From Gammaproteobacteria bacterium (GTDB lineage: Bacteria > Pseudomonadota > Gammaproteobacteria > Pseudomonadales > Pseudohongiellaceae): DNA of 35,535 nucleotides. A program made the position numbers and the translations under genes. The stretch lies in the NCBI GenBank assembly GCA_029245905.1, contig JAQWOJ010000058.1, positions 1 through 35,535 on the forward strand, given 5' to 3'. The notes under the pieces were generated by a model. The model saw only the letters and a program-made list of their open reading frames with translations. It was not told where the DNA came from and did not search any database. Positions 2,739 to 24,234 of the stretch are shown one piece after another; the first letter of the stretch is position 1, and every line of letters begins with the position of its first letter.

Positions 2739-3704
2739 ATGAAGATTCAAAACTGCCACAACACAATAGTTTGGAAGGGGGCCTTGCTTCCGGTTCTATT
2801 TCTGCCGTTAACTCTTTTTGCTCAATCTGCCGACATTCCTCGCATGGAAAACGGCAAGCCTGATACGCAGGGAACCTGGGATTTTCGGACTATAACTCCT
2901 TTTCAGAGACCCGAAGCGCTGGGCGAGAAAGAATATCTCTCTGCGGAGGAATTTGCCGCTTTTGAAGAGGAAGAAAGAGAACGAAGAGATAGAGATAATT
3001 TCACGGATACCACAACTACCGGTGATTATAATCAGTTTTGGTATGATCGGGGCGAGGAGTTGTTAGAGGACAGACGAACTTCCTTAGTTACTGTGCCAAG
3101 TAACGGCAGAGTGCCTCCGTTGACAGAGGCCGCGCGGCAGCGGAATGCGGAACGGCAGGAATTGGCTCGTCTTGCAGCGGGGGTTGAGGTCAGGCCTTTG
3201 GCGGAGCGCTGTATAATGGGGTTTAATTCCGGCCCGCCCATGATTCCATCCGCGTATAACAATAATGTCCAGATTGTGCAAACGGGAGGCTATTTCCTCA
3301 TGCACAATGAGATGATTCACAATGTAAGGCCCGTGCGCCTTGATGACGCTCAGCATCGCGATGTCCCTAGAAAATGGGAGGGAGACTCTATAGGCTACTG
3401 GGATGGTGATACGATGGTGGTGGAGACAAGAAACTTTGCTAGAGATACCGCGTTTGGCAACTCCTCTGAACGCATGCATTTAACCGAGAGATTCACAATG
3501 CTGGATGCGGATACGCTAACCTATGAATTTACCATCGAAGATCCCTCAACCTGGACCGAGCCTTGGACCGTCATGTTTCCGATGAGCAGGGCAGATTTGC
3601 CTATATATGAATATGCTTGCCATGAGGGTAACTACAGCATGGCAGGAATTCTTGGTGGCTGGAGAATGCTTGAAAGTTTGGGGCAATCGGGTCAGCAAGA
3701 TTAG
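2739..3704 (+). CDS. Exported protein of unknown function, paralogue A of a repeated family
   Basis: I recognise no characterised function. The 321-residue product starts with a signal peptide (hydrophobic stretch about 13-28, then FAQS). It shares a colinear motif set with four other proteins in this window: G-T-W-D-F-R-T-I-T-P-F near 45-55, R-T-S-L then P-S-N-G near 113-123, E-R-C near 156-158, Y-N-N-N near 173-176, W-E-G-D-S and W-D-G-D-T with M-V-V-E-T-R-N-F at 213-233, L-T-E-R-F near 250, Y-E-F-T-I near 262, and a closing A-C-H-E-G-N-Y at 293-299. The conserved Cys158 and Cys294 could pair as a disulfide, and His295/Glu296 could bind a ligand; both are guesses. A highly charged stretch lies at 73-88. 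A strong AAAAGGAG site precedes the ATG. It is likely cotranscribed with the tannase gene 142 bases upstream. Confidence 0.85.
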   Translation: MKIQNCHNTIVWKGALLPVLFLPLTLFAQSADIPRMENGKPDTQGTWDFRTITPFQRPEALGEKEYLSAEEFAAFEEEERERRDRDNFTDTTTTGDYNQFWYDRGEELLEDRRTSLVTVPSNGRVPPLTEAARQRNAERQELARLAAGVEVRPLAERCIMGFNSGPPMIPSAYNNNVQIVQTGGYFLMHNEMIHNVRPVRLDDAQHRDVPRKWEGDSIGYWDGDTMVVETRNFARDTAFGNSSERMHLTERFTMLDADTLTYEFTIEDPSTWTEPWTVMFPMSRADLPIYEYACHEGNYSMAGILGGWRMLESLGQSGQQD

Positions 3705-3734
3705 AGCCGAAGTTTTATAATTCTTAAAATCGAA

Positions 3735-3760
3735 AAGAGGGCTCTGGTTAAAGCCCTCTT
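3735..3760. terminator. Bidirectional intrinsic terminator
   Basis: AAGAGGGCT at 3735-3743 pairs perfectly with AGCCCTCTT at 3752-3760 around an eight-base loop. T-rich sequence follows on the plus strand (CTTATTTTAT), and on the minus strand the stem runs out through TTTTCGATTTTAAG. It sits in the 66-base gap between the convergent genes ending at 3704 and 3771, so it can end both transcripts. Confidence 0.85.
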
Positions 3761-3770
3761 CTTATTTTAT

Positions 3771-5003
3771 TCAAGGCTCAATTCTTGCGTTAGTCAATTC
3801 TGCAATAGCGGACAGAGTGGTTTGAGCTGCATTCAATCCCAATCGGAAATCATCGTCCGTGAATGTCGTCCAAACGTCTAACGGACTATGCCAAGTTGGA
3901 TTCCATCCTGCGCCGGTGTGAGTGCCACGTTCATTTTCCCGCAAGCTAATTGACGGTACCTCATTCATAAACGGCGTAGAGTCTGTGTTTGTCATGTGGG
4001 GGCCAACCGTCGCAGGATAGTCCGTGTTGTACTTGTCTGCCGCGGCTTTAAATGCGAATGCCAAATGCATTGAATCTTCTGCTAATTGAGAGTTCGATTG
4101 GAATTCTATATTTACGTCTGCCTCAGGGCGTTGATTGGGACTGACCGTTCCGTCAGGCCCGGGAGCACCATGGTCCCAGAGCATCATGTCATGCTGGATC
4201 ATTCCCAACCATCTTGGCTCTGGGTAAATGCCGGAATCAGTTGGATTTTCGATGCCCTGAAGATTTTTGCGCTGGTCGACATAAGCGGAGGCGCCGTTGA
4301 GCCCAGTTTCTTCGTTATTCCAAAGAGCAAAACGAATCGACACATCGGTTTCAATGTCAGGTGAATTGAAGATTCGGGCGAGCTCCATGACTAGAGCGGT
4401 TCCAGACGCATCATCATTTACCGCTTCGTTTACACCATGCCCGTCCATATGAGCGCCCAGAATGTACATTACCTCCGGCCGCGTTGTGCCGACTTTTGTG
4501 CAATAAACTTCAGATCGCGGCCCATTGGTAGGTTCCTCGCGATTGAGTTCGCGAATCCGCTCGTCAGGTTGTGCCATTAGGTCGCGGTTTACTCCTGTGG
4601 GGGCGCGGTACCCGAAAATAGCGGCTCCCCCTGGCCCGCTCCCATTTCGGCCCACCTTGCCTCCTGTAGATGTAGTTAAGTCGTTTGGTTCGCTCGTCCG
4701 AGTTCTTTCCCGAGGAGGTCTTGGCTCAGGATCATATACGTAATGCAACCGCTGTGTATTGGTACAACCTACTGCTTGAAGTTGTTCTTCGATCCAATCG
4801 ACTGCTCTTCGGTTCCTTGCGGTTCCTTGACGGCGGTCCCCAAATTGGGCTAGACCTTTAATAACTAATTTATACCGTTCAAGATCGAGCCGGTTCACCA
4901 TCTCTTGGATCGTATTTTCCTCTTGCGCGAAAAAATACGTTGGATTACTGAGAAGTATACCTGTTAGAACAGCAGCTTTTATATTCCAATGATCTTTGCC
5001 CAT
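3771..5003 (-). CDS. M28 family zinc metallopeptidase, exported
   Basis: The 410-residue protein has the M28 aminopeptidase/carboxypeptidase metal site. G-A-H-M-D-G-H-G gives His185 and Asp187, N-D-D-A-S-G gives Asp198 as bridging ligand, and W-N-N-E-E-T-G gives Glu231 (general base) and Glu232 (ligand). Further ligands are probably in N-T-D-S-T-P-F and W-H-S-P-L-D near the C-terminus. A hydrophobic signal segment ending F-F-A-Q at residues 24-27 predicts export. M28 enzymes use two zinc ions to release N- or C-terminal amino acids. The ATG at 5003 was chosen over an in-frame TTG at 5036 because the longer form adds eleven residues in front of the signal peptide. Residues about 91-165, before the metal site, form a polar Pro/Arg/Gly-rich insertion. 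It stands alone, convergent with the gene to its left. Confidence 0.88.
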   Translation of the reverse strand: MGKDHWNIKAAVLTGILLSNPTYFFAQEENTIQEMVNRLDLERYKLVIKGLAQFGDRRQGTARNRRAVDWIEEQLQAVGCTNTQRLHYVYDPEPRPPRERTRTSEPNDLTTSTGGKVGRNGSGPGGAAIFGYRAPTGVNRDLMAQPDERIRELNREEPTNGPRSEVYCTKVGTTRPEVMYILGAHMDGHGVNEAVNDDASGTALVMELARIFNSPDIETDVSIRFALWNNEETGLNGASAYVDQRKNLQGIENPTDSGIYPEPRWLGMIQHDMMLWDHGAPGPDGTVSPNQRPEADVNIEFQSNSQLAEDSMHLAFAFKAAADKYNTDYPATVGPHMTNTDSTPFMNEVPSISLRENERGTHTGAGWNPTWHSPLDVWTTFTDDDFRLGLNAAQTTLSAIAELTNARIEP

Positions 5004-5148
5004 AATAGATAGTTCCAGAACTGAAGTTAACCACAAACTAAATATAAGTTAGCTTGGCCTTTGAGTCTAGTTGATCAATAATTAGGGGGTGTTAAGATTT
5101 GGTAAAAGCCTATCAAAAAAAGAATACCAACTAGTGGCGGGTGGAAAA

Positions 5149-6630
5149 ATGAAACGCAGAACATTTTTAACAAACGGCGGAAAAATTGGTATGACATTAG
5201 CTGTCTCTTCTGTTCTTCCGTCTCGCGGTTTTGCTGCAATGATGCCCTCTGAATTGACTAGCCTGTCGGCTATAGATTTGTCTATAGCCATTCGGGGAAA
5301 ACACATCAGTTGCGTCGAGGTTATGCAAGCATATCTTGAGCGTATCCATAGATATAATGGCGTTTATAACGCTATTATTAGCTTGCAGTCTGATGACGAT
5401 CTGGTGAAGCAGGCATTGGAGGCCGATAAAGAATTGGCTCGAGGAACCTATCGGGGGTGGATGCATGGAATGCCTCACGCCGTAAAAGACCTCACTGCCG
5501 TGAAAGGAATTCGTTATACAAGTGGCTCGTTGTTATATTCGGATCGAATCGCTGAACGGGATAGTGCAATGGTTGCCCGAATTCGCAATGCGGGAGCTAT
5601 CTTCATTGGTAAAACTAACACACCAGAGTTCGGGCTTGGATCTCAGTCATATAACCCCGTATTCGGAGCTACTGGTTGTGCATACAACCCAGAATTAACT
5701 TCGGGCGGCAGCAGTGGTGGTGCAGGCTGTGGGTTGGCCACTCAGATGCTTCCAGTTGCGGACGGCAGCGATATGATGGGCTCTCTAAGGAATCCTGGCG
5801 CCTTTAATAATGTGATCGGTTATCGACCTAGTACGAATGTGATGAGTGGAAGAGATCCCAGTCAACGAAGCCTCTCCGTTTCAGGTCCGATGGGTCGAAA
5901 TACAGCCGATACAATTGAATTTTTGAAAACAATCGCCGTGCAAGACGTAGGCGAAAACTTCAGCCCCGCAAAATTGTCTGGATTAAAGATTGGTTGGTTA
6001 GGAGATCTGGATGGGTATTTTGCAACAGAGCCAGGTGTCCTAAATTTATGTGAAAACAGTTTGGGTACAGTTAGAGATGCGGGCTCGACAATCGATAATG
6101 TATCGCCTAAATTTAATCCTGAAAATCTATGGTTCTGCTGGACGACGCTCCGGCATTTAGGTCGCTCAAACATGAAGCGCTTTTATGATGATCCTGCGAC
6201 GAGAGATAAGTTAAAGCCTGATCTTGTCTGGGAAATAGAACAATCACAAATTCTTACAGAGGGAGATAGGGCTCGTGCCAACGCTATTCGTGGAGAATGG
6301 TACAGAGAATTAGACCGCCTTTTTCTGGACTATGACTTCCTCGCCATTCCATCCGCTCAAGTTTTTCCTTATCCCAAAAGCATGGCTTGGCCTACAGAGA
6401 TAGATGGACGCCAGATGGATACGTACCATAGATGGATGGAAATCGTAATATTAGCGAGCCTGGGGGGGATTCCTGTAATAAATGTTCCAGTTGGTTTCGA
6501 TGAGTTGGGTAGGCCGATGGGGATGCAAGTCATGGCAAATTTCGGCCAGGATAAAAAGGTCCTCGAGTTTGGCTTAGCTTACGACCAAATCACTGATTTT
6601 TTGCAGCACCGCCCTGAGATGGTTGGATAA
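5149..6630 (+). CDS. Amidase signature family enzyme, exported
   Basis: The 493-residue protein belongs to the amidase signature family, which hydrolyses amides with a Ser-cisSer-Lys triad. The triad is visible: Lys113 in A-V-K-D, Ser188 in S-G-G-S-S-G-G, and Ser212 in M-M-G-S-L-R-N-P. The 24-residue spacing between the two serines matches fatty acid amide hydrolase. The N-terminus M-K-R-R-T-F-L followed by a hydrophobic stretch resembles a twin-arginine signal, so the enzyme is probably exported; most amidases of this family are cytoplasmic. The start at 5149 is preceded by GGCGGGTGG and gives that signal directly; an in-frame start at 5089 would bury it 20 residues in. Unknown-family paralogue B lies 97 bases downstream on the same strand. 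The amide substrate is unknown. Confidence 0.88.
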   Translation: MKRRTFLTNGGKIGMTLAVSSVLPSRGFAAMMPSELTSLSAIDLSIAIRGKHISCVEVMQAYLERIHRYNGVYNAIISLQSDDDLVKQALEADKELARGTYRGWMHGMPHAVKDLTAVKGIRYTSGSLLYSDRIAERDSAMVARIRNAGAIFIGKTNTPEFGLGSQSYNPVFGATGCAYNPELTSGGSSGGAGCGLATQMLPVADGSDMMGSLRNPGAFNNVIGYRPSTNVMSGRDPSQRSLSVSGPMGRNTADTIEFLKTIAVQDVGENFSPAKLSGLKIGWLGDLDGYFATEPGVLNLCENSLGTVRDAGSTIDNVSPKFNPENLWFCWTTLRHLGRSNMKRFYDDPATRDKLKPDLVWEIEQSQILTEGDRARANAIRGEWYRELDRLFLDYDFLAIPSAQVFPYPKSMAWPTEIDGRQMDTYHRWMEIVILASLGGIPVINVPVGFDELGRPMGMQVMANFGQDKKVLEFGLAYDQITDFLQHRPEMVG

Positions 6631-6713
6631 TTTGAACATAAAGTTTGAAGCGCAATTGATTAATCAAAGTGCATAAGTATCTTTAATATATAAATCATTG
6701 AGCTGGGGAGCTA

Positions 6714-6719
6714 GAGGGA
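6714..6719 (+). promoter_or_regulatory. Ribosome binding site fixing a TTG start
   Basis: GAGGGA lies eight bases before the TTG at 6728. No comparable site precedes the upstream in-frame TTG at 6698, so translation of paralogue B most likely begins at 6728. Confidence 0.65.
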
Positions 6720-6727
6720 ATTTAAAG

Positions 6728-7762
6728 TTGAACGTTGTAAAGTATTTATGTATCCCGCTGCTTATGATGTTCAATTTCGTGTGGGCGCAGAGTTACAAGG
6801 TGCCAAGAAACGAGTATGCCCAGCCTGATCTGAGCGGGGTATGGAATTTTAATGACTCAACTCCTTTTGAGCGCCCTGATCGTTTCGGAACGCGTGAGTA
6901 TCTATCCAAGGAAGAGTTGTTAACTAGGGATATGAGGCTGTCTTCAGGTCAACAACGCCGGGATGAAAGTGAGTCTGATGTTTCTGCACAGATTTTAAAT
7001 GTACCAACTAACGATACTGGCGCTTATAACTTATTTTGGTCTAATTATGATGAGCCTTACCCTAACAATCGTACATCCTTAATCGTATACCCAACCGATG
7101 GGAAGATTCCCCCTACCGTCGAAGGCGTGATAACACAGCTGTCGCCACCGCCGTCAAATCCATGTAACTATGGAGATGTTGTTATCACAGACCGACCAGT
7201 CAGAGTTTCTTTTGCGGCCTTGTCGTGTGATCGACCGGAAGATTTTGGTCTGGCATCACGTTGCATCGGATTTCCGCAGACTTTTCCGCCGCATATCAAG
7301 GCGAACTCATATAACAATAACCTGCAGATCATTCAGACAAAAGATCATGTAATGATTAAATCTGAACTAGGGAATGATCCGCGTATCATTCCCCTGGATG
7401 GAAGGCCTTTCTTAACGGATATAATCCGTTATTGGACTGGGAGTTCGCGAGGGCGTTGGGAGGGCGAGACGCTGGTAGTGGTGACCCAAAACTTTCCGGA
7501 CACGCTGCCTAGTTTGTTCTTACGAACCGAGTCTTATGGTACCGCAGAAAATTCGGTGTTAACCGAACGGTTCACCAGGGTAGGCGATGATGCGTTAGAC
7601 TATGAATTTACGATAGATGATTCCCACACGTTTACTGACAGACTTACGGTTAAAACAAATCTGTCTCGCCTCGATGGGCCTATTTATGAGTTTGCCTGTC
7701 ATGAAGGAAATTACGCCCTGGAGAATATGCTGCGAGCAGCAAGGATTACTGATCGACAATAG
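6728..7762 (+). CDS. Exported protein of unknown function, paralogue B
   Basis: This 344-residue member of the unknown family begins with TTG, supported by GAGGGA eight bases upstream, and opens with a signal peptide ending V-W-A-Q-S. It keeps the family landmarks: D-L-S-G-V-W-N-F, T-P-F-E-R-P, R-T-S-L-I-V-Y-P-T-D-G, S-R-C-I-G-F, Y-N-N-N-L-Q-I-I-Q, R-W-E-G-E-T-L-V-V, L-T-E-R-F, Y-E-F-T-I and A-C-H-E-G-N-Y. It is longer than paralogues A, C and E because of extra residues between P-T-D-G and R-C-I, where N-P-C-N-Y and L-S-C-D-R add two cysteines not seen in the others. Only 28 bases separate it from the sugar-dehydrogenase-type propeller gene, so the two are probably translated from one message with the amidase. 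Function is not known. Confidence 0.83.
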   Translation: MNVVKYLCIPLLMMFNFVWAQSYKVPRNEYAQPDLSGVWNFNDSTPFERPDRFGTREYLSKEELLTRDMRLSSGQQRRDESESDVSAQILNVPTNDTGAYNLFWSNYDEPYPNNRTSLIVYPTDGKIPPTVEGVITQLSPPPSNPCNYGDVVITDRPVRVSFAALSCDRPEDFGLASRCIGFPQTFPPHIKANSYNNNLQIIQTKDHVMIKSELGNDPRIIPLDGRPFLTDIIRYWTGSSRGRWEGETLVVVTQNFPDTLPSLFLRTESYGTAENSVLTERFTRVGDDALDYEFTIDDSHTFTDRLTVKTNLSRLDGPIYEFACHEGNYALENMLRAARITDRQ

Positions 7763-7777
7763 TCAAATAAATCGTTT

Positions 7778-7783: not shown

Positions 7784-7790
7784 AGATGCC

Positions 7791-11405: not shown

Positions 11406-13082
11406 ATGGTTTTTTATTCTCATCTACAATCTAATCTCAAGCTTTATTTTTTCGTACCCTTAATAATTACTGTTGTACTTGGCGCAAGTAAATCAAGTTT
11501 GGCCCAGGGACAGGATATACAAGACGAGATGGATGAGTGGGTGAACGACACCATGTGTACGTTAGATGATCGCTCGGTAAAGCTTGGCCAAGCCCCTTCG
11601 TTTACTTTTACTCAATCTGATGGAAACAACTCACGTCATCTTGGAGCTGCGCAGGCGGGTCTTTCTACCGCCGATTTGTCAGACTTGGAATTGGCTTGGG
11701 CGGTCGCTTTTCCAGAAACATCGGGTTTACGCGCCGCACCGGTGATTATTGGATCAACTATTTTTTATTCTGCTACTGATTCAGGTCGGGTCTTCGCGTT
11801 AGACATCAACAGCGGATGTGCTAAATGGGTCTATGAGGCAGAGTCACGTCTTCGTTCCTCCTTGGCTTACTCCAAAATCGATGACTTGGGAATCCTTGTT
11901 TTCAGCGACGCTAGGGGAATGGTTCACGCAATCGACGCGAGAACTGGGCTCCCGATCTGGGTTGCTAGCGGACAAGCTTCCAACAATCAAGGAATGCTGA
12001 CTGGAACACCTGTTATTCACGAAGACAAAGTTATCGTTCCAGTTTCTGGTTCTGGCGTTATTACTGGGGGCAATCCGAACTATGAATGCTGCGAGAACCA
12101 CGGAGCGGTTACCGCGTTGGATGTGCATTCCGGTGAAAAGGTCTGGGAGTACCATACTATGCCGGCAGCTGAATACACTGGGCAGGTCAGCCCCACCGGC
12201 GTTAAACAGCGTGGTCCGTCAGGAGCTCCCATTTGGACTACGCCAACCATTGACATAAAGCGTGGCCAGATTTATGTCACTACCGGTGAGAATACCTCGC
12301 ATCCTACTACCAACACTAGTGATGCAATCATTGCGCTTGATATTGAGACAGGCAAGGCTAACTGGGTTTTCCAGGCTCTCGAGAATGATATTTGGAATTT
12401 CGGCTGCAGCGTTGGCGGTCCGAACTGCATTATTTTAGATGACACTAACTCCGTGGATTTTGACTTTGGAGGGCCTGCTATTCTGGTGGAGACAGACGCT
12501 GGAGAGTTGCTTATTGCTGGCCAGAAATCAGGCGACCTATGGGCGTTGGACCCGGAGACAGGGGCGTTGGTCTGGAATCAGCGAGTCGGAGAGGGAACAG
12601 AGTTAGGCGGGAATCACTGGGGTATCGCCGCGGATTCTGAGCGCGCTTTTATGACTATCAATGACCCTGGGAGAGGGAATGGAAACAGCCGCCCGGGAAT
12701 CTATAGCTATTTTGTCAGCACAGGAGAGCCAAGCTGGTTTTACGAAGTCCAGCCAAAGTGCAATGAACAGCGAAGCGAAAGGATCAGGCGTTGTGAATCA
12801 CTGCACGGCTTTTCAGCTACGCCGCTATCTGTGGACGGAGCAGTCATCACTGGGGGCCGAGATGGGCGATTGTTCATCTTCAATTCGGATTCAGGTGAGC
12901 TGATTTTCGAATATGATACGGTGAAGGATTATGAAACTGTAAACGGCGTTGAGGGCTACGGTGGTTCGATCGACAGTCATTCTATTGCCGCAGGATCCGG
13001 CATGGTTTTTGTGGGTTCAGGATACGGGCAGTTTCGCCAAGTGCCGGGTAATGTGCTGTTGGCCTTTAAGCCAAGGGAATAA
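11406..13082 (+). CDS. PQQ-binding beta-propeller protein, polyvinyl-alcohol-dehydrogenase-like
   Basis: The 558-residue product has an N-terminal signal peptide ending S-L-A-Q-G and then a propeller rich in A-L-D-x-x-x-G-x-x-x-W blades, characteristic of quinoproteins. The order of motifs (N-S-R-H-L-G-A-A-Q near 80, Y-E-C-C-E-N-H-G-A-V-T-A-L-D near 225, A-P-I-W-T-T-P-T-I-D near 275, G-Q-K-S-G-D-L-W-A-L-D near 375) is that of polyvinyl-alcohol-dehydrogenase-like proteins, which oxidise secondary alcohols in the periplasm. Those enzymes often carry a cytochrome c domain with C-x-x-C-H; none is present here, and only a lone Cys (D-T-M-C-T) precedes the propeller. An external electron acceptor would be needed, or the protein may not be a dehydrogenase. 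It ends the plus-strand run, 111 bases before the convergent paralogue C. Confidence 0.82.
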   Translation: MVFYSHLQSNLKLYFFVPLIITVVLGASKSSLAQGQDIQDEMDEWVNDTMCTLDDRSVKLGQAPSFTFTQSDGNNSRHLGAAQAGLSTADLSDLELAWAVAFPETSGLRAAPVIIGSTIFYSATDSGRVFALDINSGCAKWVYEAESRLRSSLAYSKIDDLGILVFSDARGMVHAIDARTGLPIWVASGQASNNQGMLTGTPVIHEDKVIVPVSGSGVITGGNPNYECCENHGAVTALDVHSGEKVWEYHTMPAAEYTGQVSPTGVKQRGPSGAPIWTTPTIDIKRGQIYVTTGENTSHPTTNTSDAIIALDIETGKANWVFQALENDIWNFGCSVGGPNCIILDDTNSVDFDFGGPAILVETDAGELLIAGQKSGDLWALDPETGALVWNQRVGEGTELGGNHWGIAADSERAFMTINDPGRGNGNSRPGIYSYFVSTGEPSWFYEVQPKCNEQRSERIRRCESLHGFSATPLSVDGAVITGGRDGRLFIFNSDSGELIFEYDTVKDYETVNGVEGYGGSIDSHSIAAGSGMVFVGSGYGQFRQVPGNVLLAFKPRE

Positions 13083-13193: not shown

Positions 13194-14174
13194 TTAGTGG
13201 CTTCCGCCTTCGCGTTCTTGTTTTTCCAAGTTTCTTGCGACAGACAAAATGTTGAGTAAGCCATAGTTGCCCTCATGACAGGCAAATTCATAGATGGGCT
13301 CCTCGCCGCGAACCATGGGGAAGGATACCGTCCAATCCTCCGCCCATGTAGTGTCGTCCATAACTGTAAGTGTATACTCCAATAATTCGTTATCGTTTCG
13401 ACGAAACCGTTCTTCTATTTCTAAATCAACATTAGCCCGGCGGAAACTCGTTTTTGGAGAGAAATTCTTAGTGCGAACGACCAAAGTTTCCCCTTCCCAG
13501 TGCCCTCGAGAGTCACCATGCCAAAGCTTTACGTTGTCAGGTAAATGGGGTCGGTCATCAATCGGGATTATTCTGACGTCATGTGCCATTTCAATGTACA
13601 GCATAACGAAATCCTGGGATTGAATAATTTTTAGATTGTTATTGTAAGCTTGCGGTAACATCCCCTGGGGAACGCCCCAGGTAATGCAACGTTCGTTCAA
13701 TGAGCGATCCGTCCAGCTATCAGCAGGGCCTCGGCCCTCTCTTAGAGCTTTTAATCTTTCAGCCCTTACTTCTGCAACCTGGGTATAGCCAGGAATCTTT
13801 CCGTTAGAGGGGGCCACTATTAATGAAGTCTGACCGGTCGCCAGCACAGTTGAACCATAATCCAGGTCGGCGGGGTCATGAACGGAAAGGCTAGTGCGAC
13901 TGAAATCCAGCGGCCGACCGTCTTCTCGTGCGGCGCTTGCTCTTTCATAATCCACGATTTCTTCCGGAGTTAGAAATGCTTTATCACCAAGCCGGTCGGG
14001 GCGCTCTAGAGGTGTAATTGTTCTCCTGTCCCAGGTCCCCTGAATGTTTGGATCTCCCCACGGGGTCGTGTCTTGAAGATAGGACCCGACATTTTGATTT
14101 TGAGCCGCAATTGAAAAGGATGCAATGATACTGAGAGCTACCATTAAGAGCTTAAGTATGGTCAGGCGCGCCAT
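13194..14174 (-). CDS. Exported protein of unknown function, paralogue C
   Basis: This 326-residue member of the unknown family starts at an ATG preceded by GGAGG six bases upstream; an in-frame TTG at 14186 is therefore not used. A signal peptide spans about residues 1-24 (ends I-A-A-Q). Landmarks: I-Q-G-T-W-D-R-R-T-I-T-P-L-E-R-P near 45-59, T-S-L-I-V-A-P-S-N-G, E-R-C-I-T-W-G, A-Y-N-N-N-L-K-I-I-Q, R-I-I-P-I-D, H-W-E-G-E-T-L-V-V-R-T-K-N-F, I-E-E-R-F, and Y-E-F-A-C-H-E-G-N-Y. The C-terminus is charged and acidic/basic mixed (E-K-Q-E-R-E-G-G). It lies 79 bases after the enolase-superfamily gene on the same strand, so the two are probably cotranscribed. No function can be assigned. Confidence 0.85.
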   Translation of the reverse strand: MARLTILKLLMVALSIIASFSIAAQNQNVGSYLQDTTPWGDPNIQGTWDRRTITPLERPDRLGDKAFLTPEEIVDYERASAAREDGRPLDFSRTSLSVHDPADLDYGSTVLATGQTSLIVAPSNGKIPGYTQVAEVRAERLKALREGRGPADSWTDRSLNERCITWGVPQGMLPQAYNNNLKIIQSQDFVMLYIEMAHDVRIIPIDDRPHLPDNVKLWHGDSRGHWEGETLVVRTKNFSPKTSFRRANVDLEIEERFRRNDNELLEYTLTVMDDTTWAEDWTVSFPMVRGEEPIYEFACHEGNYGLLNILSVARNLEKQEREGGSH

Positions 14175-14253
14175 GACGACCTCCAAGTTCTTCCATAGAG
14201 ATAGGGTTTAGTAATTTTGAGGCTCTTGTTTCACAATACTGCCCAGTTTACCC

Positions 14254-15504
14254 CTAAATCCTGTGTTGTTCCAATGTCCTTTCATTTAGAGTGATGCCGT
14301 AACCGGGGTCTTTAGAAACCATTATAGAACCATCAAAAAAACTCTCGCTAGGTTCTATTAATTTACTTCTCCACGTTTGTTCGCCCCATTGAAATTCCAA
14401 GATATCAAAATTGGGTATCGCTGCGCATAAGGCTACTGAAGCAGCTGTTGAAATCGGTCCACTAGGATTATGCGGCGATACTTTGACGTCATAAGCCTCA
14501 GCGAGAGAAGAGATTTTGATCGCTTCCCACATGCCCCCGCAATGTTTAATGTCGGGCATAATAATATCCACCGCGTTCTTTTCGCACAGTGGTTTAAATC
14601 CCTCCACTCCAAACAAAAATTCTCCTCCCGCAAGGGTTTGAGAAATGGCCTCGTGAATAATACGAGTATTTTCTGTTTGAGTCGGAGGAACGGGTTCTTC
14701 GTACCAGCTCAGATTTGCCGCCTCTAGTTGTTGTGCGACTTCTATCGACATTTGCGTGTTAAAAAAGCTATGAGCATCAATTTTAATTGCGACGTCGTCA
14801 CCCACTCTTTCGCGCATAGCATATACGCACGCTATGCCTAAATTTTTGGCCTCGTTGACTTCCGCTGATGACGAACTTAAAGATGGAAATCCGTCAAAGG
14901 GGGCGGCTTTGATCGCCTTAAAGCCATCGGCTGTTGCTAGTTCGGCACTGTCGGCAAATCCTTCTGGGGTGCGCTTTGTCGTAGCTCGGTTAATGTTCGC
15001 ATACACGGTAAGGTCGCTATGGAGCCGGCCTCCTACTAAATCATAGAAAGGTATGTTCAATGACTTTGAGGTTAAATCCCAGAGCGCTTGTTCAATAGCG
15101 CTAAAGGCTGTGGCAACTGACCGACTGCCGTTTGCGGCAATTTTTCTGCCTGCTTGCCGGTATTTGTGGATATCGAAGGCAGATTCACCCTCAACTAGTT
15201 TATAAAAGTCACTTAGTTCTCTTAACTCTGCGGCTCCGCCAATAGAGGCCTCTCCGAGACCCCTTAGGCCGTTGCTACCGATGAGTTGAACAACTATCCA
15301 ATTAGTCCGGTTTGTTACTGCAACAACATATATTTCAATGCCCGCAACGCGGACGTTCCTATCGGCGTTGGTGGCTTGTGCAAAGATTGATTCTGGGCTT
15401 ATTAGAAGTGCGCTGCCGAAAAGCAATCCACTCTTGCAGAATTCTCGGCGATGCCTAGAAAATTTGTTAAGCCCCTGAGCATTGTGATTTATTTTTATGT
15501 TCAC
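14254..15504 (-). CDS. Mandelate racemase/enolase-superfamily sugar-acid dehydratase, galactonate-dehydratase-like, Tat-exported
   Basis: The 416-residue protein is an enolase-superfamily enzyme. Magnesium ligands are Asp243 (K-I-D-A-H), Glu269 (W-Y-E-E-P) and Glu295 (A-G-G-E). His245 sits two residues after the first ligand and His345 lies in S-P-H-N-P-S-G-P. The spacings 26, 26 and 50 equal those I recall for E. coli D-galactonate dehydratase (Asp183, Glu209, Glu235, His285, with His185), which points to dehydration of an aldonic acid to a 2-keto-3-deoxy acid. Unusually, residues 17-45 look like a twin-arginine signal (R-H-R-R-E-F-C-K, then a hydrophobic stretch ending F-A-Q-A), and the catalytic domain begins only near residue 50. 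Cytoplasmic relatives have no such leader. It precedes paralogue C in the same direction. The acid it uses (galactonate, gluconate or another) is undetermined. Confidence 0.85.
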   Translation of the reverse strand: MNIKINHNAQGLNKFSRHRREFCKSGLLFGSALLISPESIFAQATNADRNVRVAGIEIYVVAVTNRTNWIVVQLIGSNGLRGLGEASIGGAAELRELSDFYKLVEGESAFDIHKYRQAGRKIAANGSRSVATAFSAIEQALWDLTSKSLNIPFYDLVGGRLHSDLTVYANINRATTKRTPEGFADSAELATADGFKAIKAAPFDGFPSLSSSSAEVNEAKNLGIACVYAMRERVGDDVAIKIDAHSFFNTQMSIEVAQQLEAANLSWYEEPVPPTQTENTRIIHEAISQTLAGGEFLFGVEGFKPLCEKNAVDIIMPDIKHCGGMWEAIKISSLAEAYDVKVSPHNPSGPISTAASVALCAAIPNFDILEFQWGEQTWRSKLIEPSESFFDGSIMVSKDPGYGITLNERTLEQHRI

Positions 15505-16659: not shown

Positions 16660-17241
16660 ATGGGGAAGGACTTTATAACTCGCAGAGCTTTCTTAGGCTC
16701 CGTGAAAAGCTCGGTCGGCAAATCAATCATAGTGCTTTCATCTTCGGCTATCGTTGCGGCATGCAGGGATTCCAAGTTTGCGAGAGCGGCAGGTGAGGCG
16801 TTTGTAAACCTTAACGAAACAGAAGCTTCAGAATTTGACGCTATTGCAGGAAGAATTCTGCCTTCTACAACTTCGCCCGGGGCCAAAGAAGCGGGAGTGG
16901 TTTACTTTATCGATAATGTGCTTGACGATAGCCGCAGTGCCGAGTTTGATGTGTTGAAAAAAGGTCTCCAAGAGTTACGAGCAAGCGCCTCCCAAAAATT
17001 CAACTCCCCTAATTTTTTCTCTCTGAATGAAGCGCAGCAAGATTCGCTTCTAAGGCAGGCTGAAAGTACTGCTTTTTTTTCTACGATGCGCTATCTAGTT
17101 ATAGCTGGCATGTTTGCCTTGCCGGAGTACGGAGGCAACAAAGATTCAGTTGGTTACGATTTGATGGGTTTCGATGATCGACACAGTTGGCTCTCGCCCT
17201 ATGGGTATTACGATGCTGATTATCTAGAGAAGGGTGAGTAG
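16660..17241 (+). CDS. Gluconate 2-dehydrogenase subunit 3 family protein (small Tat-targeted subunit)
   Basis: The 193-residue product matches the gluconate 2-dehydrogenase subunit 3 family. Its N-terminus carries a clear twin-arginine signal, T-R-R-A-F-L-G at residues 8-14, followed by a hydrophobic segment. Later come the typical A-G-R-I-L-P-S, G-A-K-E-A-G-V-V-Y-F-I-D and the C-terminal G-Y-D-L-M-G-F. In known complexes this small subunit pairs with the flavoprotein and carries it through the Tat system, since the large subunit has no signal of its own. That fits here: the GMC gene begins two bases after this stop, on the same strand. A lipobox-like A-A-C follows the hydrophobic stretch near residue 35, so it may be lipid-anchored. 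No cytochrome c subunit gene is adjacent. Confidence 0.88.
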   Translation: MGKDFITRRAFLGSVKSSVGKSIIVLSSSAIVAACRDSKFARAAGEAFVNLNETEASEFDAIAGRILPSTTSPGAKEAGVVYFIDNVLDDSRSAEFDVLKKGLQELRASASQKFNSPNFFSLNEAQQDSLLRQAESTAFFSTMRYLVIAGMFALPEYGGNKDSVGYDLMGFDDRHSWLSPYGYYDADYLEKGE

Positions 17242-17243
17242 GA

Positions 17244-18914
17244 ATGGCTGAACTAAAGTCCATCAGTTTTAGCACTAGAGAAGAAGTTGATTTTGTAGTG
17301 ATCGGTTCGGGATCCGCAGGCGGTATTATCGCAAAAGAATTAGCGACGGCGGGTCATTCTGTTGTTGTGTTAGAGCAGGGCCCTTATTTACAGGCGTCAG
17401 ATTTTAAGCATGATGAGTGGGGCTATGAGCACAATTACGATTTAACGTGGAGCGCGAGAAAAGGAAACGTACAAACCTTCCGCAAGAACGAAAATGAAGA
17501 AGCGGAACCTCGGGAAGCCGTGCTGCGTTATGCACACAATGTGGGTGGCAGTAGCGTACATTATTCAGGAAACTTCTGGCGCCTGCGCCCAATTGATTTT
17601 AACGAAGCCAGTGTCCGCGGGACAATCCCAGGGACTAACTTTGTGGACTGGCCTATTACCTACGAAGATTTGGAGCCTTATTATACCAAGGTTGATTGGG
17701 AAATTGGCGTCTCTGGTCTGCAGGGCCCTTGGGATCCGTATCGCTCAAGAGATTACCCGTGCCCCCCAATGCCCATTAAGGGCTCAGATGTCTTATTGGA
17801 AAGGGCCGCAAAAAGCTTGGGTTTAAATCCTTATCCGGCCCCAGTGGCAATACTCTCTGCGCCTCACAATGGTAGGCCGGGTTGCATTCATTGTGGGTAC
17901 TGCAATGGTTATGGTTGTGAGGTGAATGCGAAATCCTCTTCAATGGTGGCGATGATTCCGCTGGCGCTAGCATCTGGTAACTGTGAACTTCGAACTATGG
18001 CAACCGTGTCCCGGATTAATACGAATGATGGCGGTCGAGTGAATGAAGTGGTGTATTTTGATTCAAACGGCGTTGAGCAAGCTCAAAAAACTAGAGCAGC
18101 GGTCGTATGCGCTAACGGTGCAGAAACCCCAAGACTCCTTTTAATGTCTTCTTCGAATATTTTTCCTGACGGACTGGCTAATTCTAGTGGATCAGTTGGA
18201 CAGAATCTTATGTTCAATGGATACTCTTCTGTGACAGGTTTGTTTGACGAGCCAGTTAACGCCTGGAAAAGCATACCAGCTACTCGCGTAGTGCATGATT
18301 TCTATGAGCTGGATCCCTCTTTAGGGTTCTACGGCGGCGGGGGTATTGATGGTCGCCATCCTTCAGCCGGAACGCCATTGAAATTTGCCTTAGGTGCCCA
18401 TGATTTATTTGGTGGGCCGAATTGGGGGGGTGAATTCAAAGATAGTTTAGCGTTTCAATTTTCTCATTGCGCTGCTTTTGACGGTCATACTACTTCTTTG
18501 CCTTTGTCTTCAAATAACGTGACACTTGACCCAGTATATAAAGATAGTTTTGGGAGGCCGGCGATTCGTTGTACCTATATGGATCACCCAGACGATCTGT
18601 CCACGATGAAATGGTTTAAGGATAAGAGTATTGAATTGATGGAGGCCGCGGGAGCAGCCCGTATTAGCGGGTCCTACCCTGAATCTGGGCAATCGGGGAA
18701 TGTGCACTTACTAGGTACTTGCCGAATGGGATCCGATCCCGCTAATTCTGTTATAAATGCAGGCCACCGAGCACATGATGTTCCTAACTTGTTCACATGT
18801 GATGGCAGTTCATTGGTGACTTCAAGTCGCGGCCAACCCACTATGACTATCATGGCCCTAGCCTTTCGCGCGGCAGATCTAATCAATGAAGCAGCAAGAA
18901 GGAACGAAATTTAG
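17244..18914 (+). CDS. GMC-family flavin dehydrogenase, large subunit (gluconate/glucose dehydrogenase type)
   Basis: The 556-residue protein is a glucose-methanol-choline family flavoprotein. The FAD-binding G-S-G-S-A-G-G is at 21-27, N-V-G-G-S-S-V-H-Y near 99-107, and the C-terminal catalytic region has H-L-L-G-T-C-R-M-G and R-G-Q-P-T-M-T-I-M-A-L. It probably oxidises a sugar or sugar acid in the periplasm, in complex with the preceding subunit. Cys214, Cys217, Cys220 and Cys225 form C-x2-C-x2-C-x4-C, a likely iron-sulfur ligand set; bacterial FAD glucose dehydrogenases of this complex type carry a 3Fe-4S cluster in this region. It has no signal peptide of its own, as expected for a hitch-hiker substrate of the Tat system. 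The start follows the previous stop by two bases. The physiological electron acceptor gene (usually a cytochrome c subunit) is not seen nearby. Confidence 0.9.
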   Translation: MAELKSISFSTREEVDFVVIGSGSAGGIIAKELATAGHSVVVLEQGPYLQASDFKHDEWGYEHNYDLTWSARKGNVQTFRKNENEEAEPREAVLRYAHNVGGSSVHYSGNFWRLRPIDFNEASVRGTIPGTNFVDWPITYEDLEPYYTKVDWEIGVSGLQGPWDPYRSRDYPCPPMPIKGSDVLLERAAKSLGLNPYPAPVAILSAPHNGRPGCIHCGYCNGYGCEVNAKSSSMVAMIPLALASGNCELRTMATVSRINTNDGGRVNEVVYFDSNGVEQAQKTRAAVVCANGAETPRLLLMSSSNIFPDGLANSSGSVGQNLMFNGYSSVTGLFDEPVNAWKSIPATRVVHDFYELDPSLGFYGGGGIDGRHPSAGTPLKFALGAHDLFGGPNWGGEFKDSLAFQFSHCAAFDGHTTSLPLSSNNVTLDPVYKDSFGRPAIRCTYMDHPDDLSTMKWFKDKSIELMEAAGAARISGSYPESGQSGNVHLLGTCRMGSDPANSVINAGHRAHDVPNLFTCDGSSLVTSSRGQPTMTIMALAFRAADLINEAARRNEI

Positions 18915-19013: not shown

Positions 19014-19017
19014 CGTT

Positions 19018-19500
19018 TCAGTGCTGTTCGGAAGCAGTCTCGATGCTGGCGAAAATAGAATGGCTGCCATCTTTGTTGATAAGCAAGATATCGTAAGGCG
19101 TAAATCTATTTCCCATTTCCATACCAGGACCCCCGATTGGCATGCCTGGTACTGCTAGACCCATTGCTCCCGCTGGCGGAGATGCAAGAAATTGCGCAAT
19201 AAATTTTTCAGGAATGTGCCCCTCAAAATAATATCCGTCTTTATGCACGGCCGTATGGCAAGAACGCCATTCATTCTTTAAGCCGAACTCGTCTTTGAGC
19301 TTTTGGATATCGACCGGGTGGTGGAATGCAGTGGAATAACCATTTTCATTCATGTGGTCTATCCAACCGTTGCAACAACCGCAGGTCGGCTCTTTATAAA
19401 CGTTCAGGACGACATCGTCGATCGACTGTGCGCTGACCGCAGATTGCGTGATACTTAACCAAGTAGCAAAAGCGAAATTTGTAGCTATATGTAACCTCAT
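19018..19500 (-). CDS. DUF411 family exported metal-binding-type protein
   Basis: The 160-residue product is a DUF411 protein: signal peptide about 1-24 (ends V-S-A-Q), then V-Y-K-E-P-T-C-G-C-C-N-G-W with Cys40, Cys42 and Cys43, and a further Cys in R-S-C-H-T-A. The family is small, periplasmic and often found with copper-handling genes, and the Cys set together with C-terminal Met/His residues (M-P-I-G-G-P-G-M-E-M) suggests copper or another soft metal. That role is inferred from family context. Here no copper pump or oxidase gene is adjacent; the neighbours are a lactonase-like gene upstream and the GMC gene downstream (convergent). GGAG lies about six bases before the ATG. The gap of 110 bases to the lactonase-like gene leaves cotranscription open. 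Confidence 0.85.
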   Translation of the reverse strand: MRLHIATNFAFATWLSITQSAVSAQSIDDVVLNVYKEPTCGCCNGWIDHMNENGYSTAFHHPVDIQKLKDEFGLKNEWRSCHTAVHKDGYYFEGHIPEKFIAQFLASPPAGAMGLAVPGMPIGGPGMEMGNRFTPYDILLINKDGSHSIFASIETASEQH

Positions 19501-19610
19501 GATTGGCTCCGTTACTAATTTTTTATGAGTGCCTGTCCCAGAATCTAACTACCGCGAAACTTGAGAGTAGGCAGTATACGGCGGTTTTCGGTATTTAGAA
19601 GGCTGTGGGC

Positions 19611-20621: not shown

Positions 20622-20626
20622 AAGAT

Positions 20627-20633
20627 CTCTCCC
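20627..20633 (-). promoter_or_regulatory. Ribosome binding site deciding the lactonase start
   Basis: On the minus strand GGGAGAG lies five bases before the ATG at 20621. This makes it the likely start over the overlapping ATG at 20639. Confidence 0.65.
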
Positions 20634-20635
20634 AC

Positions 20636-21691: not shown

Positions 21692-21855
21692 CTAGCACCT
21701 CCTTGAATATTCACTTTTTGGTAAATTAAAATCGTTTATGGTAATGAATATACTCGCCCCGCATTAATATTGCATCCTCGCTCTTGAGTTTTGATAGAAA
21801 AATTGGTTTTTATAAGGCAAACTTCAGGAAAATTAGCCCAGAGAGGAGGCAAACG
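21692..21855. promoter_or_regulatory. Shared upstream region of divergent genes
   Basis: This 164-base stretch separates the MBL-fold gene (minus) from the DUF6152 gene (plus) and must hold both promoters. It is AT-rich (e.g. GGTAAATTAAAATCG), but I could not define convincing -35/-10 pairs or an operator palindrome by eye. Confidence 0.4.
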
Positions 21856-22299
21856 ATGAAGCAACTTCGTACTTTAATAATCTTGATGGGCTTAACGGTG
21901 CTCTTGCAATCGTCTTTGCGAAGCCATCATGCTTTTTCATCTGAGTTCGATATAGACAAGCCGATTGAGTTGCGCGGCGTGATTACCCGCATGGAATGGG
22001 TCAATCCTCACACTTGGTTGCATATGACTGCAACGTTAGAGGGTGAAGTTACAGAAGAGTGGATGTTGGAAGGTGGCACACCTAACACGCTTTTGCGTCA
22101 GGGCCTTACCGATAAAATTCTTCAGATTGGGACAGAGATTCTGGTTAGGGGATATCAAAGCAAGGACCCTGACTGCATCCCTAAATGCCGCGGTAGTGGT
22201 AGAGATATCACTTTCCTAGACGGGAGTAATATTTTTATGGGTTCCTCGGGCGTAGGAGCCCCTCCTGGTGGGTTTCCAGGTGATAACGAGAATCGATGA
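21856..22299 (+). CDS. DUF6152 family exported protein
   Basis: The 147-residue product is a DUF6152 protein. After a signal peptide (ends S-L-R-S), it has the family hallmark H-H-A-F-S-S-E-F-D, followed by G-V-I-T-R-M-E-W-V-N-P-H-T-W-L-H and later W-M-L-E-G-G-T-P-N-T-L-L-R-Q-G. The conserved His pair after the signal and the N-P-H-T-W-L-H motif could bind a metal, but no activity is known. GAGGAGG lies six bases before the ATG at 21856, so an upstream in-frame start at 21784 is unlikely. The C-terminal tail is Gly/Pro-rich (G-V-G-A-P-P-G-G-F-P-G-D). It heads a three-gene unit with paralogues D and E, with gaps of 49 and 35 bases. Confidence 0.88.
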   Translation: MKQLRTLIILMGLTVLLQSSLRSHHAFSSEFDIDKPIELRGVITRMEWVNPHTWLHMTATLEGEVTEEWMLEGGTPNTLLRQGLTDKILQIGTEILVRGYQSKDPDCIPKCRGSGRDITFLDGSNIFMGSSGVGAPPGGFPGDNENR

Positions 22300-22348
22300 A
22301 AGATGAGAGAAAAACTGTCAATCAAATGTACTAAGCAAGAGTAGGTTT

Positions 22349-23212
22349 ATGAAAACTCAAAATATTTTAATGCGATTTGCCTGCGTTATTACACTGGCGG
22401 CCTTGCTCCATTCGTGTTCACAAGAAGATTCTGTTAACAATGCGACTGTGGATTCGCTTGATCAATTTAACGAGCCTGTTACGCCTGATTTGAGTGGAAT
22501 TTGGCAGGCGGTTAACACTGCCAGCTGGAATTTGGAAGGACATACGGCTAGCAAAATGCCAGTGACTACCGTGCTCGGCGCATTGGGAGGGATTCCCGCG
22601 GGTATGAGTGTGGTTGAGGATGGTGAGATTCCCTACTTGCCAGACGCTCTTTCGCAGAGAGATACTAATCGTGCTGATTGGACAAATTTGGACCCGGTGG
22701 CTAAGTGCTATATCCCTGGCGTTCCGCGCTCAACATACATGCCATGGCCTCTTCAAATTCTTCAAACAGATACAGAGATATTTGTGGCGTATGAGTTCGG
22801 GAGTAACAGCCGGACCATCTTTATGGATAGACCGGGAACTGAAGCGCCCATACCATCTTGGATGGGATATTCTTTGGGTCGTTGGGAAGGGGATAGCTTA
22901 GTAGTGAATGTGACAAAACAAGTGGCCGACACCTGGTTAGACGCCTCTGGCAATTATCACGGGCCCAATCTTATGGTGGAGGAGCGTTACACTCTCATCG
23001 ATGAGAATCACATTCAATATGAGGCGACCATTAACGACCCTGAAGTTTATAGTAGACCTTGGAAGATCAGTATGCCTCTATACCGCAGGATAGAAGATAA
23101 TGCTCGCTTACTAGAATATAAGTGCGTCGAGTTTGGAGAAGATCTGCTTTATGATCATCTGCGAAAAGACTACGATGGACCGAAGGCATTAGACGGAAGT
23201 CTTAGAGAATAA
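22349..23212 (+). CDS. Exported lipoprotein of unknown function, divergent relative D of the repeated family
   Basis: This 287-residue protein has a lipobox (L-L-H-S-C, Cys23) after a short signal, so it is probably a membrane-anchored lipoprotein. It shares the skeleton of the unknown family but is the most divergent copy here: D-L-S-G-I-W-Q at the start, a single Cys in A-K-C-Y-I-P-G-V-P-R, then Q-I-L-Q-T, R-T-I-F-M-D, Y-S-L-G-R-W-E-G-D-S-L-V-V-N-V, V-E-E-R-Y, Y-E-A-T-I-N-D-P and a final Y-K-C-V-E-F in place of A-C-H-E-G-N-Y. The T-P-F-E-R-P and T-S-L-I-V-x-P-x-x-G segments are missing, which explains its shorter length. It is translated between DUF6152 and paralogue E. Function is unknown. 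Confidence 0.8.
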   Translation: MKTQNILMRFACVITLAALLHSCSQEDSVNNATVDSLDQFNEPVTPDLSGIWQAVNTASWNLEGHTASKMPVTTVLGALGGIPAGMSVVEDGEIPYLPDALSQRDTNRADWTNLDPVAKCYIPGVPRSTYMPWPLQILQTDTEIFVAYEFGSNSRTIFMDRPGTEAPIPSWMGYSLGRWEGDSLVVNVTKQVADTWLDASGNYHGPNLMVEERYTLIDENHIQYEATINDPEVYSRPWKISMPLYRRIEDNARLLEYKCVEFGEDLLYDHLRKDYDGPKALDGSLRE

Positions 23213-23247
23213 TCGCAAATTAAATCGCTGGAAATGAGGAAAATATA

Positions 23248-24234
23248 ATGAAAAGAACAACCTCCTTTTTATCTATCTTGGGTTTTACTTTTTTGATTGC
23301 ACCAAGCTATGGCGATGTTCCCGTCACGAAGTGGGGCAAGCCAAGCTTACAGGGCAACTGGGATTTCAGAACTGTTACTCCTTTCCAGAGGCCGGCGTCT
23401 TTTGCAGATAAAGAATTTTTGACGGAGGGAGAAATAGAAGAATTCGAAGCGGCAATAATTGCCGGCCGTGAGGCGCGGGCGGCCGCGAATTTCGATGGCG
23501 AATACGATCAACGGGATCTCGATGTTGGCTACAATCAGTTTTATCTGGATCAAGGCACGACGATGACAACAACTATGCGCACCTCTCAATTGATCTACCC
23601 AACGGATGGTCGTATGCCTGCTATGACACAGAGGGGTCGTGAGACTGCTGCTTATTTTCGTGCCTTGCAGAGCCGCTCACCGGAGGGTCCAGAGGACCGT
23701 AATCTTTACGATCGTTGTATCCTAGGTTTCAATGCGGGACCTCCTATGAGATCAGGCGCTTACAATAATATTATGAAGTTAGTGCAAACAGAAGGTCACG
23801 TAGCGATTATGGTCGAGATGGTCAATGACCACCGAATTATACCGACTAACATGAGTGGTCCAGATTTGCCTGACGATATGCGTTTATGGAAAGGTGATTC
23901 GAGAGGGTATTGGGATGGAGACACGTTCGTTGTTGATACTAAAAACTTAACCCATTTGAGCAGGTTTAGCGGGACGGGCCAGAATATGGTTTTAACTGAG
24001 CGCTTTACTCGACTCGATGAAAATAGGTTGGAGTATATGTGGACGGTTGATGATCCCGAAATGTTTGAAGACAAATTTACAGCGGTGGTCGAGATGCAGT
24101 TAACTGACGATGATGTTTTCGAATATGCTTGTCATGAGGCTAATTACGCGATGCCGTTGATGCTGAGTGGTGCTCGAAAACAAGAAGCCTCTGGTGAAGA
24201 CGATGATACCTGGCTCCCCAGCTGGTCTCGCTAG
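23248..24234 (+). CDS. Exported protein of unknown function, paralogue E
   Basis: The 328-residue product has a signal peptide (residues 1-22, ends P-S-Y-G-D) and the complete motif order of the unknown family: L-Q-G-N-W-D-F-R-T-V-T-P-F-Q-R-P near 34-48, R-T-S-Q-L-I-Y-P-T-D-G, D-R-C-I-L-G-F-N-A-G-P-P-M, A-Y-N-N, R-I-I-P, W-K-G-D-S-R-G-Y-W-D-G-D-T-F-V-V-D-T-K-N-L, L-T-E-R-F, and Y-A-C-H-E-A-N-Y at the end. The Gly of A-C-H-E-G-N-Y is Ala here. C-I-L-G-F-N-x-G-P-P-M makes it closest to paralogue A by eye. GAGGAAA precedes the ATG. It closes the DUF6152 unit; 31 bases later the DUF418 gene begins. Confidence 0.84.
   Translation: MKRTTSFLSILGFTFLIAPSYGDVPVTKWGKPSLQGNWDFRTVTPFQRPASFADKEFLTEGEIEEFEAAIIAGREARAAANFDGEYDQRDLDVGYNQFYLDQGTTMTTTMRTSQLIYPTDGRMPAMTQRGRETAAYFRALQSRSPEGPEDRNLYDRCILGFNAGPPMRSGAYNNIMKLVQTEGHVAIMVEMVNDHRIIPTNMSGPDLPDDMRLWKGDSRGYWDGDTFVVDTKNLTHLSRFSGTGQNMVLTERFTRLDENRLEYMWTVDDPEMFEDKFTAVVEMQLTDDDVFEYACHEANYAMPLMLSGARKQEASGEDDDTWLPSWSR

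Follow-up and report, generated by a model that had tools for sequence, protein, structure and literature searches.

Why would one stretch of bacterial DNA carry five copies of an exported protein that no database family describes? The question is raised by a window of 35,535 nucleotides (the whole stretch analysed; contig JAQWOJ010000058.1 of assembly GCA_029245905.1) from a draft genome of a gammaproteobacterium of the Pseudohongiellaceae (2.2 Mb, 86% complete). A preliminary description had read the five as one uncharacterised exported family with a shared motif order, had argued against a single recent tandem duplication, and had proposed that each copy is the partner of an adjacent enzyme. 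The five turn out to be a small part of a large family of predicted calycin-like barrels, and one branch of the family is linked to a constant partner gene, DUF6152 (PF19649). The genes concerned, numbered from the first letter of the window, are as follows.

2739..3704, + strand: P0001, family member of the long type (L); open reading frame (ORF) call, alignment and profile match
6698..7762, + strand: P0002, long type; ORF call, alignment and profile match; true start 6698 or 6728
13194..14186, − strand: P0003, long type; ORF call, alignment and profile match
21784..22299, + strand: DUF6152 gene, likely start 21856; Pfam match and OB-fold model
21925, + strand: His-His with which the predicted mature DUF6152 protein begins
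22349..23212, + strand: P0004, short type (S), 49 bp after DUF6152; profile match
23248..24234, + strand: P0005, long type, 35 bp after the short-type gene P0004

All five reading frames are present where they had been placed, the start at 6728 lying in the same frame as the ORF at 6698-7762. The gene order at 21784-24234 is thus DUF6152-S-L; DUF6152 is not one of the five but a separate protein, with a predicted OB fold, encoded beside them.

The five proteins and their family

The similarity of the five reaches beyond short motifs. BLASTP found all 10 pairs significant (E-values from 5e-76 to 3e-14), and their alignment holds 29 invariant columns. P0004 scores 95.7 bits against a profile of long relatives built without it, while the best of 300 shuffled copies of P0004 reaches 1.3 bits against the same profile. 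The shared motif order that had been reported holds only in part: the five are related and G-x-W is kept also in P0004, but the listed motifs do not all occur in all five. P0004 retains none of the opening motif besides G-x-W; its counterparts of R-C and E-R-F read K-C and E-R-Y, and both Y-N-N and C-H-E-G-N-Y are missing. The opening motif reads GVWNFNDSTPF in P0002 and GTWDRRTITPL in P0003, the closing motif is CHEANY in P0005, and R-I-I-P is not conserved in P0001 or P0004.

That the family is uncharacterised was borne out. Pfam and NCBIfam contain no match for the five proteins, and Pfam has no family match for any of the 104 long relatives scanned. At E 0.1 or better these relatives bring up seven Pfam families, and lipocalin and FABP families are absent from the seven. 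The Pfam rows below threshold (EAD1, DUF2857 and others) recur in at most two of the 104 relatives and were set aside as chance, as was F_actin_bind (E 0.17), which appears for P0002 alone. No match was found among PDB sequences for P0001 or for the profile of long relatives, nor any PHROGs family for the DUF6152 protein and the three of the five proteins scanned; the listings returned by literature searches held nothing on the barrel family. All five proteins have export-type N-termini as read by eye, in keeping with the preliminary description, and are predicted to be exported. The signal of P0004 carries, also by eye, a lipobox-like LHSC; such a signal is found in 12 of 45 strong short-type frames versus 4 of 165 long-type frames.

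As a count of the family, five is far too low. A profile of the five gave 35 matches in its own genome, corresponding to 34 ORFs: 26 of the long type (one truncated at a contig end), six of the short type and two divergent. Every one of the 11 genomes of the genus, the present one included, holds 19-44 family matches, and none was found in four genomes from other families of the same order. In an even sample across the phylum at least 9 of 299 genomes match at E 1e-10; this is a lower bound since at most seven candidates per genome were scored, and counts for single genomes are therefore left aside. A pattern-limited scan across GTDB confirmed at least 579 genome stretches, of which the best 80 belong by title mostly to metagenome-assembled genomes (MAGs) of Acidobacteria and Gammaproteobacteria. 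The 16 genomes behind those loci hold from 4 to at least 129 family matches each, with at least 128 and at least 129 copies in two named Acidobacteria MAGs, again lower bounds because only 141 candidates were scored. A plasmid collection yielded six Novosphingobium records with partial family matches. Nine family matches were also seen in a record titled as a Klebsiella pneumoniae MAG (source of locus L087), a species label which is doubtful because the family is otherwise seen in environmental lineages.

Could the window's copies nonetheless have arisen on the spot? Identity among the four long window proteins is 34-38% in the alignment; it is 45-57% to the best relative of each in a set of 100 rows taken from other genomes, a comparison from which copies elsewhere in the own genome were left out. 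For three of the four the best relative from another genome is an Acidobacteria protein. Each long copy therefore has a closer homologue in another genome than among its neighbours in the window, and local tandem duplication was rejected on these identities together with a quick tree of 110 rows, as had been argued from the letters. On this tree the four window rows are separate: three label changes are needed to tell them from the other own copies, and 16 to tell all 25 rows of the own genome and window from the remaining ones. P0001, at 2739, clusters with three own-genome copies on other contigs (Shimodaira–Hasegawa-like approximate likelihood ratio test, SH-aLRT, 97). The copy at 23248 falls in a starred set of four rows (96), and its nearest rows are both from Acidobacteriota; one of their loci has the order S-L-DUF6152 (L070), and the other has S-L with DUF6152 on the facing strand (L059). 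The long type would appear to have been amplified singly, tens to more than 100 times per genome.

DUF6152 as the partner of one branch

The family has one constant partner gene. The window's DUF6152 gene (21784-22299) scores 92.4 bits against a Pfam cut-off of 27, and all six DUF6152 genes of the own genome stand beside a family gene. An independent search for DUF6152 in 15 genomes found 42 copies, none of them outside the 11 genomes of the genus, and 41 of the 42 adjoin or are fused to a family ORF (the exception is L202); by chance, 0.99 of the 42 would be expected within 500 bp of a family gene. The count is of whole ORFs: 39 were found directly, one by the divergent-type profile (L201), and one is the first DUF6152 of L195, whose adjoining family ORF matches weakly (33 bits). 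Measured from domain to domain, up to 600 bp, 39 of the 42 lie near a family gene. The divergent-type partners score 25-65 bits against the main family profiles. Several gene orders occur, namely S-L-DUF6152, DUF6152-S-L, S-DUF6152, DUF6152-divergent type and divergent type-DUF6152, and there are fusions of DUF6152 and a family member in one ORF (L186 and L195 in genomes G004 and G009; L213 in G302).

The linkage extends well beyond the genus. In the 16 named genomes, which were chosen for holding the family, every one of the 30 DUF6152 loci fetched, out of 153 matches, has a family ORF on its own strand inside flanks of 1.5 kb. The phylum sample has DUF6152 in 31 of 299 genomes, including all nine that are positive for the family. 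Among 29 loci fetched from this sample, a family ORF adjoins or is fused to eight of the nine strong DUF6152 matches (>80 bits) and to none of the 20 weak ones. Most family copies stand without DUF6152, among varied genes. DUF6152 is one constant partner of the family, tied to one branch of it.

The DUF6152 protein has features of its own. The model of the mature window protein has the order beta-beta-beta-alpha-beta-beta (predicted local distance difference test, pLDDT, 80) and is best matched by OB-fold (oligonucleotide/oligosaccharide-binding) proteins such as PriB, at a middling VIA Z of 8.1 with typical OB topology; Foldseek gave no match at 0.001 or better. In 69 of 69 DUF6152 copies examined the domain starts with His-His directly after a small residue (A in 64, G in three, S in two), and (N/D/K)-P-H is conserved in the same 69. 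His-His also lies near the domain start in all 29 loci of the phylum sample, preceded by A or S in 28; in L233 the first His-His is another one, and HHGW lies further on. The weak subtype mostly starts HHGW, with N-P-H, P-P-H or G-P-H as its later motif. After predicted signal cleavage the mature chain would begin with His, and the protein may bind a metal ion, with His-His as the candidate site.

Such a layout is familiar from the N-terminal-His metal proteins LPMO, CopC, DUF4198 and DUF6702, as described in passages of PMC10952591 and PMC12537917. DUF6152 would resemble these in the N-terminal His left by predicted cleavage, and has a second conserved His, that of (N/D/K)-P-H. It differs in its predicted OB fold and His-His start, DUF4198 being reported as a beta-sandwich (PMC12537917). 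In histidine-brace proteins the N-terminal His of the mature chain and a second His lie close together and bind copper or another transition metal; the sequence pattern of DUF6152 would fit such a start, and residues 1-4 of its model fall below pLDDT 50. The main text of PMC12537917 does not name DUF6152, and an open-access literature search gave no match for DUF6152, PF19649 or DUF6644, a membrane protein family taken up below, nor any mention of the candidate metal site.

Predicted fold and conserved residues

What kind of protein is the partner of DUF6152? An AlphaFold2 model of P0001 built from 104 sequences (pLDDT 86.2; predicted template modelling score, pTM, 0.82) shows one beta-barrel with helices, including a conserved C-terminal helix. 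The best PDB match in Foldseek is CRBP1 (E 8.7e-4), the sole one at 0.001 or better. VIA-align gives Z 10.1 to REP1, FABP5 and CRBP4 over 109-112 residues at 3.0-3.2 Å, within about 39-286 of the model; models without a clear match usually reach a best Z of 7 to 8. The family is therefore predicted to form a calycin-like up-and-down antiparallel beta-barrel of the FABP/lipocalin type. In the model strand A (45-48) is followed by a helix-bearing insert up to residue 175 and then by strands B onward. G-x-W is a hallmark of the first strand of calycins, in which a basic residue near the C-terminus packs on the Trp, and the motif lies on the first strand here: G45 is present in 103 of 104 sequences and W47 in 87, the other 17 having Y or F. 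FABPs carry a helical lid between strands A and B, and the family's insert occupies this position.

The aligned sequences (104 with 35-51% identity to P0001, whose residue numbers are used) are conserved unevenly over this fold. Mean entropy is 1.45 bits in the barrel strands, 1.17 in the C-terminal helix and 2.85 in insert helices 1 and 3, which suggests a constant core and a variable lid. Fifteen residues are invariant in 104/104: R57, S115, G123, P126, R157, C158, E191, R197, G215, W221, E250, E291, C294, E296 and N298. H295, Y97, N98 and R113 are near-invariant. P0004 keeps E191, R197, E250, E291, E296, C158 and C294 and lacks R57, S115, R157, H295 and N298. Both cysteines, which probably form a disulfide, are present in P0004 and, by eye, in the divergent types.

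With FABP and CRBP proteins (4azp, FABP5; 6e6k, CRBP4) the family shares a barrel that superposes, a helical element between strands A and B, and the G-x-W first strand. Unlike them it has an insert of about 125 residues in place of a short lid, a conserved C-terminal helix, two invariant cysteines, many invariant charged residues and a predicted exported location, and it gives no Pfam match, so that it is not filed under the known lipocalin or FABP sequence families. A two-lobed periplasmic substrate-binding protein was considered and rejected: the two-lobed alpha/beta fold was not found, the model being one barrel and helices. Periplasmic receptors of the Bug/TctC type are amplified exported paralogues encoded next to catabolic genes, and the present family likewise has many exported paralogues scattered beside such genes, but as barrels rather than two-lobed proteins.

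Neighbouring genes and possible roles

The three solo long-type genes of the window each lie 67-142 bp behind an enzyme gene on the same strand (tannase, amidase and mandelate-racemase type), and two further neighbours are pyrroloquinoline quinone (PQQ) beta-propeller genes.

3..1016, − strand: PQQ beta-propeller gene, truncated by the window edge
1058-2596, + strand: tannase/feruloyl-esterase-like gene, on the strand of P0001 and ending 142 bp before it
5089-6630, + strand: amidase gene, on the strand of P0002 and ending 67 bp before it
11406..13082, + strand: PQQ beta-propeller gene neighbouring P0003 (13194)
14254-15504, − strand: mandelate-racemase/enolase-type gene, with P0003 67 bp downstream of it

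The preliminary description had placed each copy beside a hydrolase, a dehydratase or DUF6152, which is true of the window, but the neighbours of the family at large are mixed. Genes within two of the own copies were tallied (105 of 107 scanned): among the 25 families listed of 117, PQQ propellers (seven) and DUF6152 (six) are followed by hydrolase families, with DUF6644 at three. In the corresponding tally of 110 neighbour ORFs of relatives, family and DUF6152 genes were deliberately excluded, a cut at 49,000 residues removed the flanks of most loci beyond L094, and spurious antisense ORFs in GC-rich contigs affect the calls; among its 25 listed families of 133, PQQ is the most frequent Pfam neighbour (six), and cytochrome c domains occur four and two times. 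No recurrent binding-protein-dependent transporter appears among the families listed in either tally, the major facilitator superfamily accounting for three of the 110. A GH39-like gene beside a plasmid copy had seemed homologous to an own-genome neighbour; this was rejected (E 0.005; GH39 against peptidase M20).

The own genome has 31 PQQ beta-propeller genes (44 rows merged), a number that looks high for a 2.2 Mb draft. One lies within 5 kb of 13 of the 26 long-type copies, where 4.5 would be expected (binomial 1.3e-4), and for all 34 copies the figure is 13 against 5.9 (binomial 0.003), PQQ being the sole enzyme class tested and one picked after the tally had been seen. PQQ propellers are thus enriched near family copies, an association weaker than that of DUF6152. 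The search for constant neighbours by profile, which the preliminary description had put forward, accordingly yields DUF6152 in the first place and PQQ propellers more weakly, with the others varied.

On own contigs C15 and C23, though not on C97, DUF6644 pairs stand next to family genes, and a plasmid of Novosphingobium humi has such a pair beside S-like and DUF6152 genes. Around the weak DUF6152 subtype, DUF6644 heads the list of Pfam neighbours, with 7 of 84 ORFs across 20 loci. At those loci (L215-L234) the barrel family does not adjoin, and the recurrence of weak DUF6152 beside DUF6644 membrane proteins resembles, by analogy, an N-terminal-His chaperone with its membrane partner.

One own long-type copy is fused behind two glyoxalase/VOC domains (L134:7681-9444, − strand, contig C47). 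This gene belongs to an S-L-DUF6152 cluster with an FGE-sulfatase gene beside it, and two further loci (L174, L180) resemble it in scores and spacing. A search for fused domains in ten long reading frames near relatives brought up no Pfam match in any of the ten.

Other observations concern the window itself. A DUF418 membrane protein gene directly behind the DUF6152-S-L cluster is seemingly split into overlapping frames (24266-24778 and 24658-25584), with the Pfam match on the second (24658-25584); the frameshift may be real or assembly-derived. At 16660-18914 a gluconate 2-dehydrogenase subunit 3-like gene precedes a GMC oxidoreductase gene, together an FAD-type dehydrogenase pair. Between 31245 and 35434, behind DUF3500 and gamma-glutamyltransferase genes, stands a CoxG-like gene followed by what appear to be three subunits of a xanthine/CO-dehydrogenase-type molybdenum enzyme (CoxG, DUF3500 and gamma-glutamyltransferase are Pfam names; the three subunits were read by eye).

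What, then, might the barrels do? The family, its size, its linkage to DUF6152 and the pattern of conservation are established here, the folds and export are predictions, and any ligand, metal or function is inferred. We favour ligand binding, with a shared grip and a variable lid, one branch working with a candidate His-His OB-fold metal binder, and consider this about equally likely to be right or wrong. The barrel would hold a small organic ligand, either periplasmically or extracellularly; the invariant polar core would grip a chemical group common to all ligands, and the variable insert would set the choice of ligand or partner. Each copy might serve an oxidative or hydrolytic enzyme encoded nearby, and the short type with its adjoining long-type genes may work in a fixed module with DUF6152, the predicted exported OB-fold protein and candidate metal binder. 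Of the partner role first proposed, the idea of ligand binding fits the predicted calycin-like fold and the DUF6152 linkage stands; a physical link to the adjacent enzymes would be conjecture. Stated more broadly and more tentatively, these genes could make up a new exported system, in which a DUF6152 metalloprotein and calycin-like barrels (short, long and divergent) would act as receptors or enzymes for organic or metal-organic ligands, with DUF6644 at some loci.

Several results weigh against binding barrels of this kind. The CRBP1 match has a Foldseek TM-score of 0.23 by query and 0.48 by target, and the barrel match spans about 110 of 321 residues. Seven of the fifteen invariant residues are charged (R57, R157, E191, R197, E250, E291, E296) and two are polar (S115, N298), seemingly beyond the need of a binding barrel, and such a set would suit a catalytic site. 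A family member is fused to two glyoxalase/VOC domains. The PQQ association concerns a class chosen after the fact, and family and PQQ genes are both abundant. Finally, 22 of the 31 DUF6152-positive genomes of the phylum sample have no detected family member.

The barrels might themselves be enzymes: on a calycin-like catalytic scaffold the invariant Arg, Glu, Ser and Asn residues would form the active site, and the paralogues would differ in the secreted or dissolved substrate on which they act. Phenolic acid decarboxylase and allene oxide cyclase use a calycin-like barrel as a catalytic scaffold. The nine charged and polar invariant residues, the near-invariant H295, Y97, N98 and R113, the VOC fusion and amplification in a genome that also carries 31 PQQ genes all speak for catalysis. 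However, P0004 lacks five of the conserved residues, which means that not every family member has the full set; the 50 fold matches listed include no known calycin enzyme, an absence that excludes nothing. We regard enzymes as a possibility to be taken seriously, if a somewhat doubtful one.

An account centred on metal, which overlaps with the favoured binding of ligands, appears unlikely. DUF6152 would be an N-terminal-His metal chaperone with DUF6644 as membrane partner, and the short- and long-type barrels would capture or shield metal-ligand complexes, in an arrangement like that of CopC/CopD or YcnI/YcnJ. It could draw on the His-His after a small residue at −1 and the (N/D/K)-P-H of all 69 DUF6152 copies, on the His-His in 29 of 29 loci of the phylum sample, and on DUF6644, which tops the neighbours of the weak subtype and adjoins family genes on C15, C23 and the N. 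humi plasmid. Yet most long-type copies stand without DUF6152, the 25 families listed of 117 and of 133 in the neighbour tallies include none for transport of, or resistance to, copper, nickel or zinc, and the His-His end is disordered in the model (residues 1-4 below pLDDT 50). Lastly, it is highly improbable that these are ordinary structural or envelope proteins without a specific ligand, amplified by drift or dosage, their motifs only holding the fold: several invariant residues (G, W, P, C) do look structural and the neighbours are mixed, but 19-44 copies in 11/11 genus genomes, polar residues invariant despite deep divergence, and a pairing with DUF6152 that persists between phyla under several gene orders argue otherwise.

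Collectively, poorly cultured soil and marine bacteria hold a large unnamed family in tens to more than 100 copies per genome. As the searched Pfam, NCBIfam and PDB have no match for it, genome annotation is blind to perhaps 2-4% of their genes. This estimate assumes a gene in every kb and uses the 34 ORFs found in 2.2 Mb as well as the count of at least 129 in a genome of 3.7 Mb. The fold lead, the DUF6152 partner and the candidate His-His site together provide testable hypotheses on how dissolved organic molecules or metals are handled. If the broader and more tentative reading of a new exported system is true, the amplified long type would give Acidobacteria and marine Gammaproteobacteria a repertoire of periplasmic small-molecule specificities.

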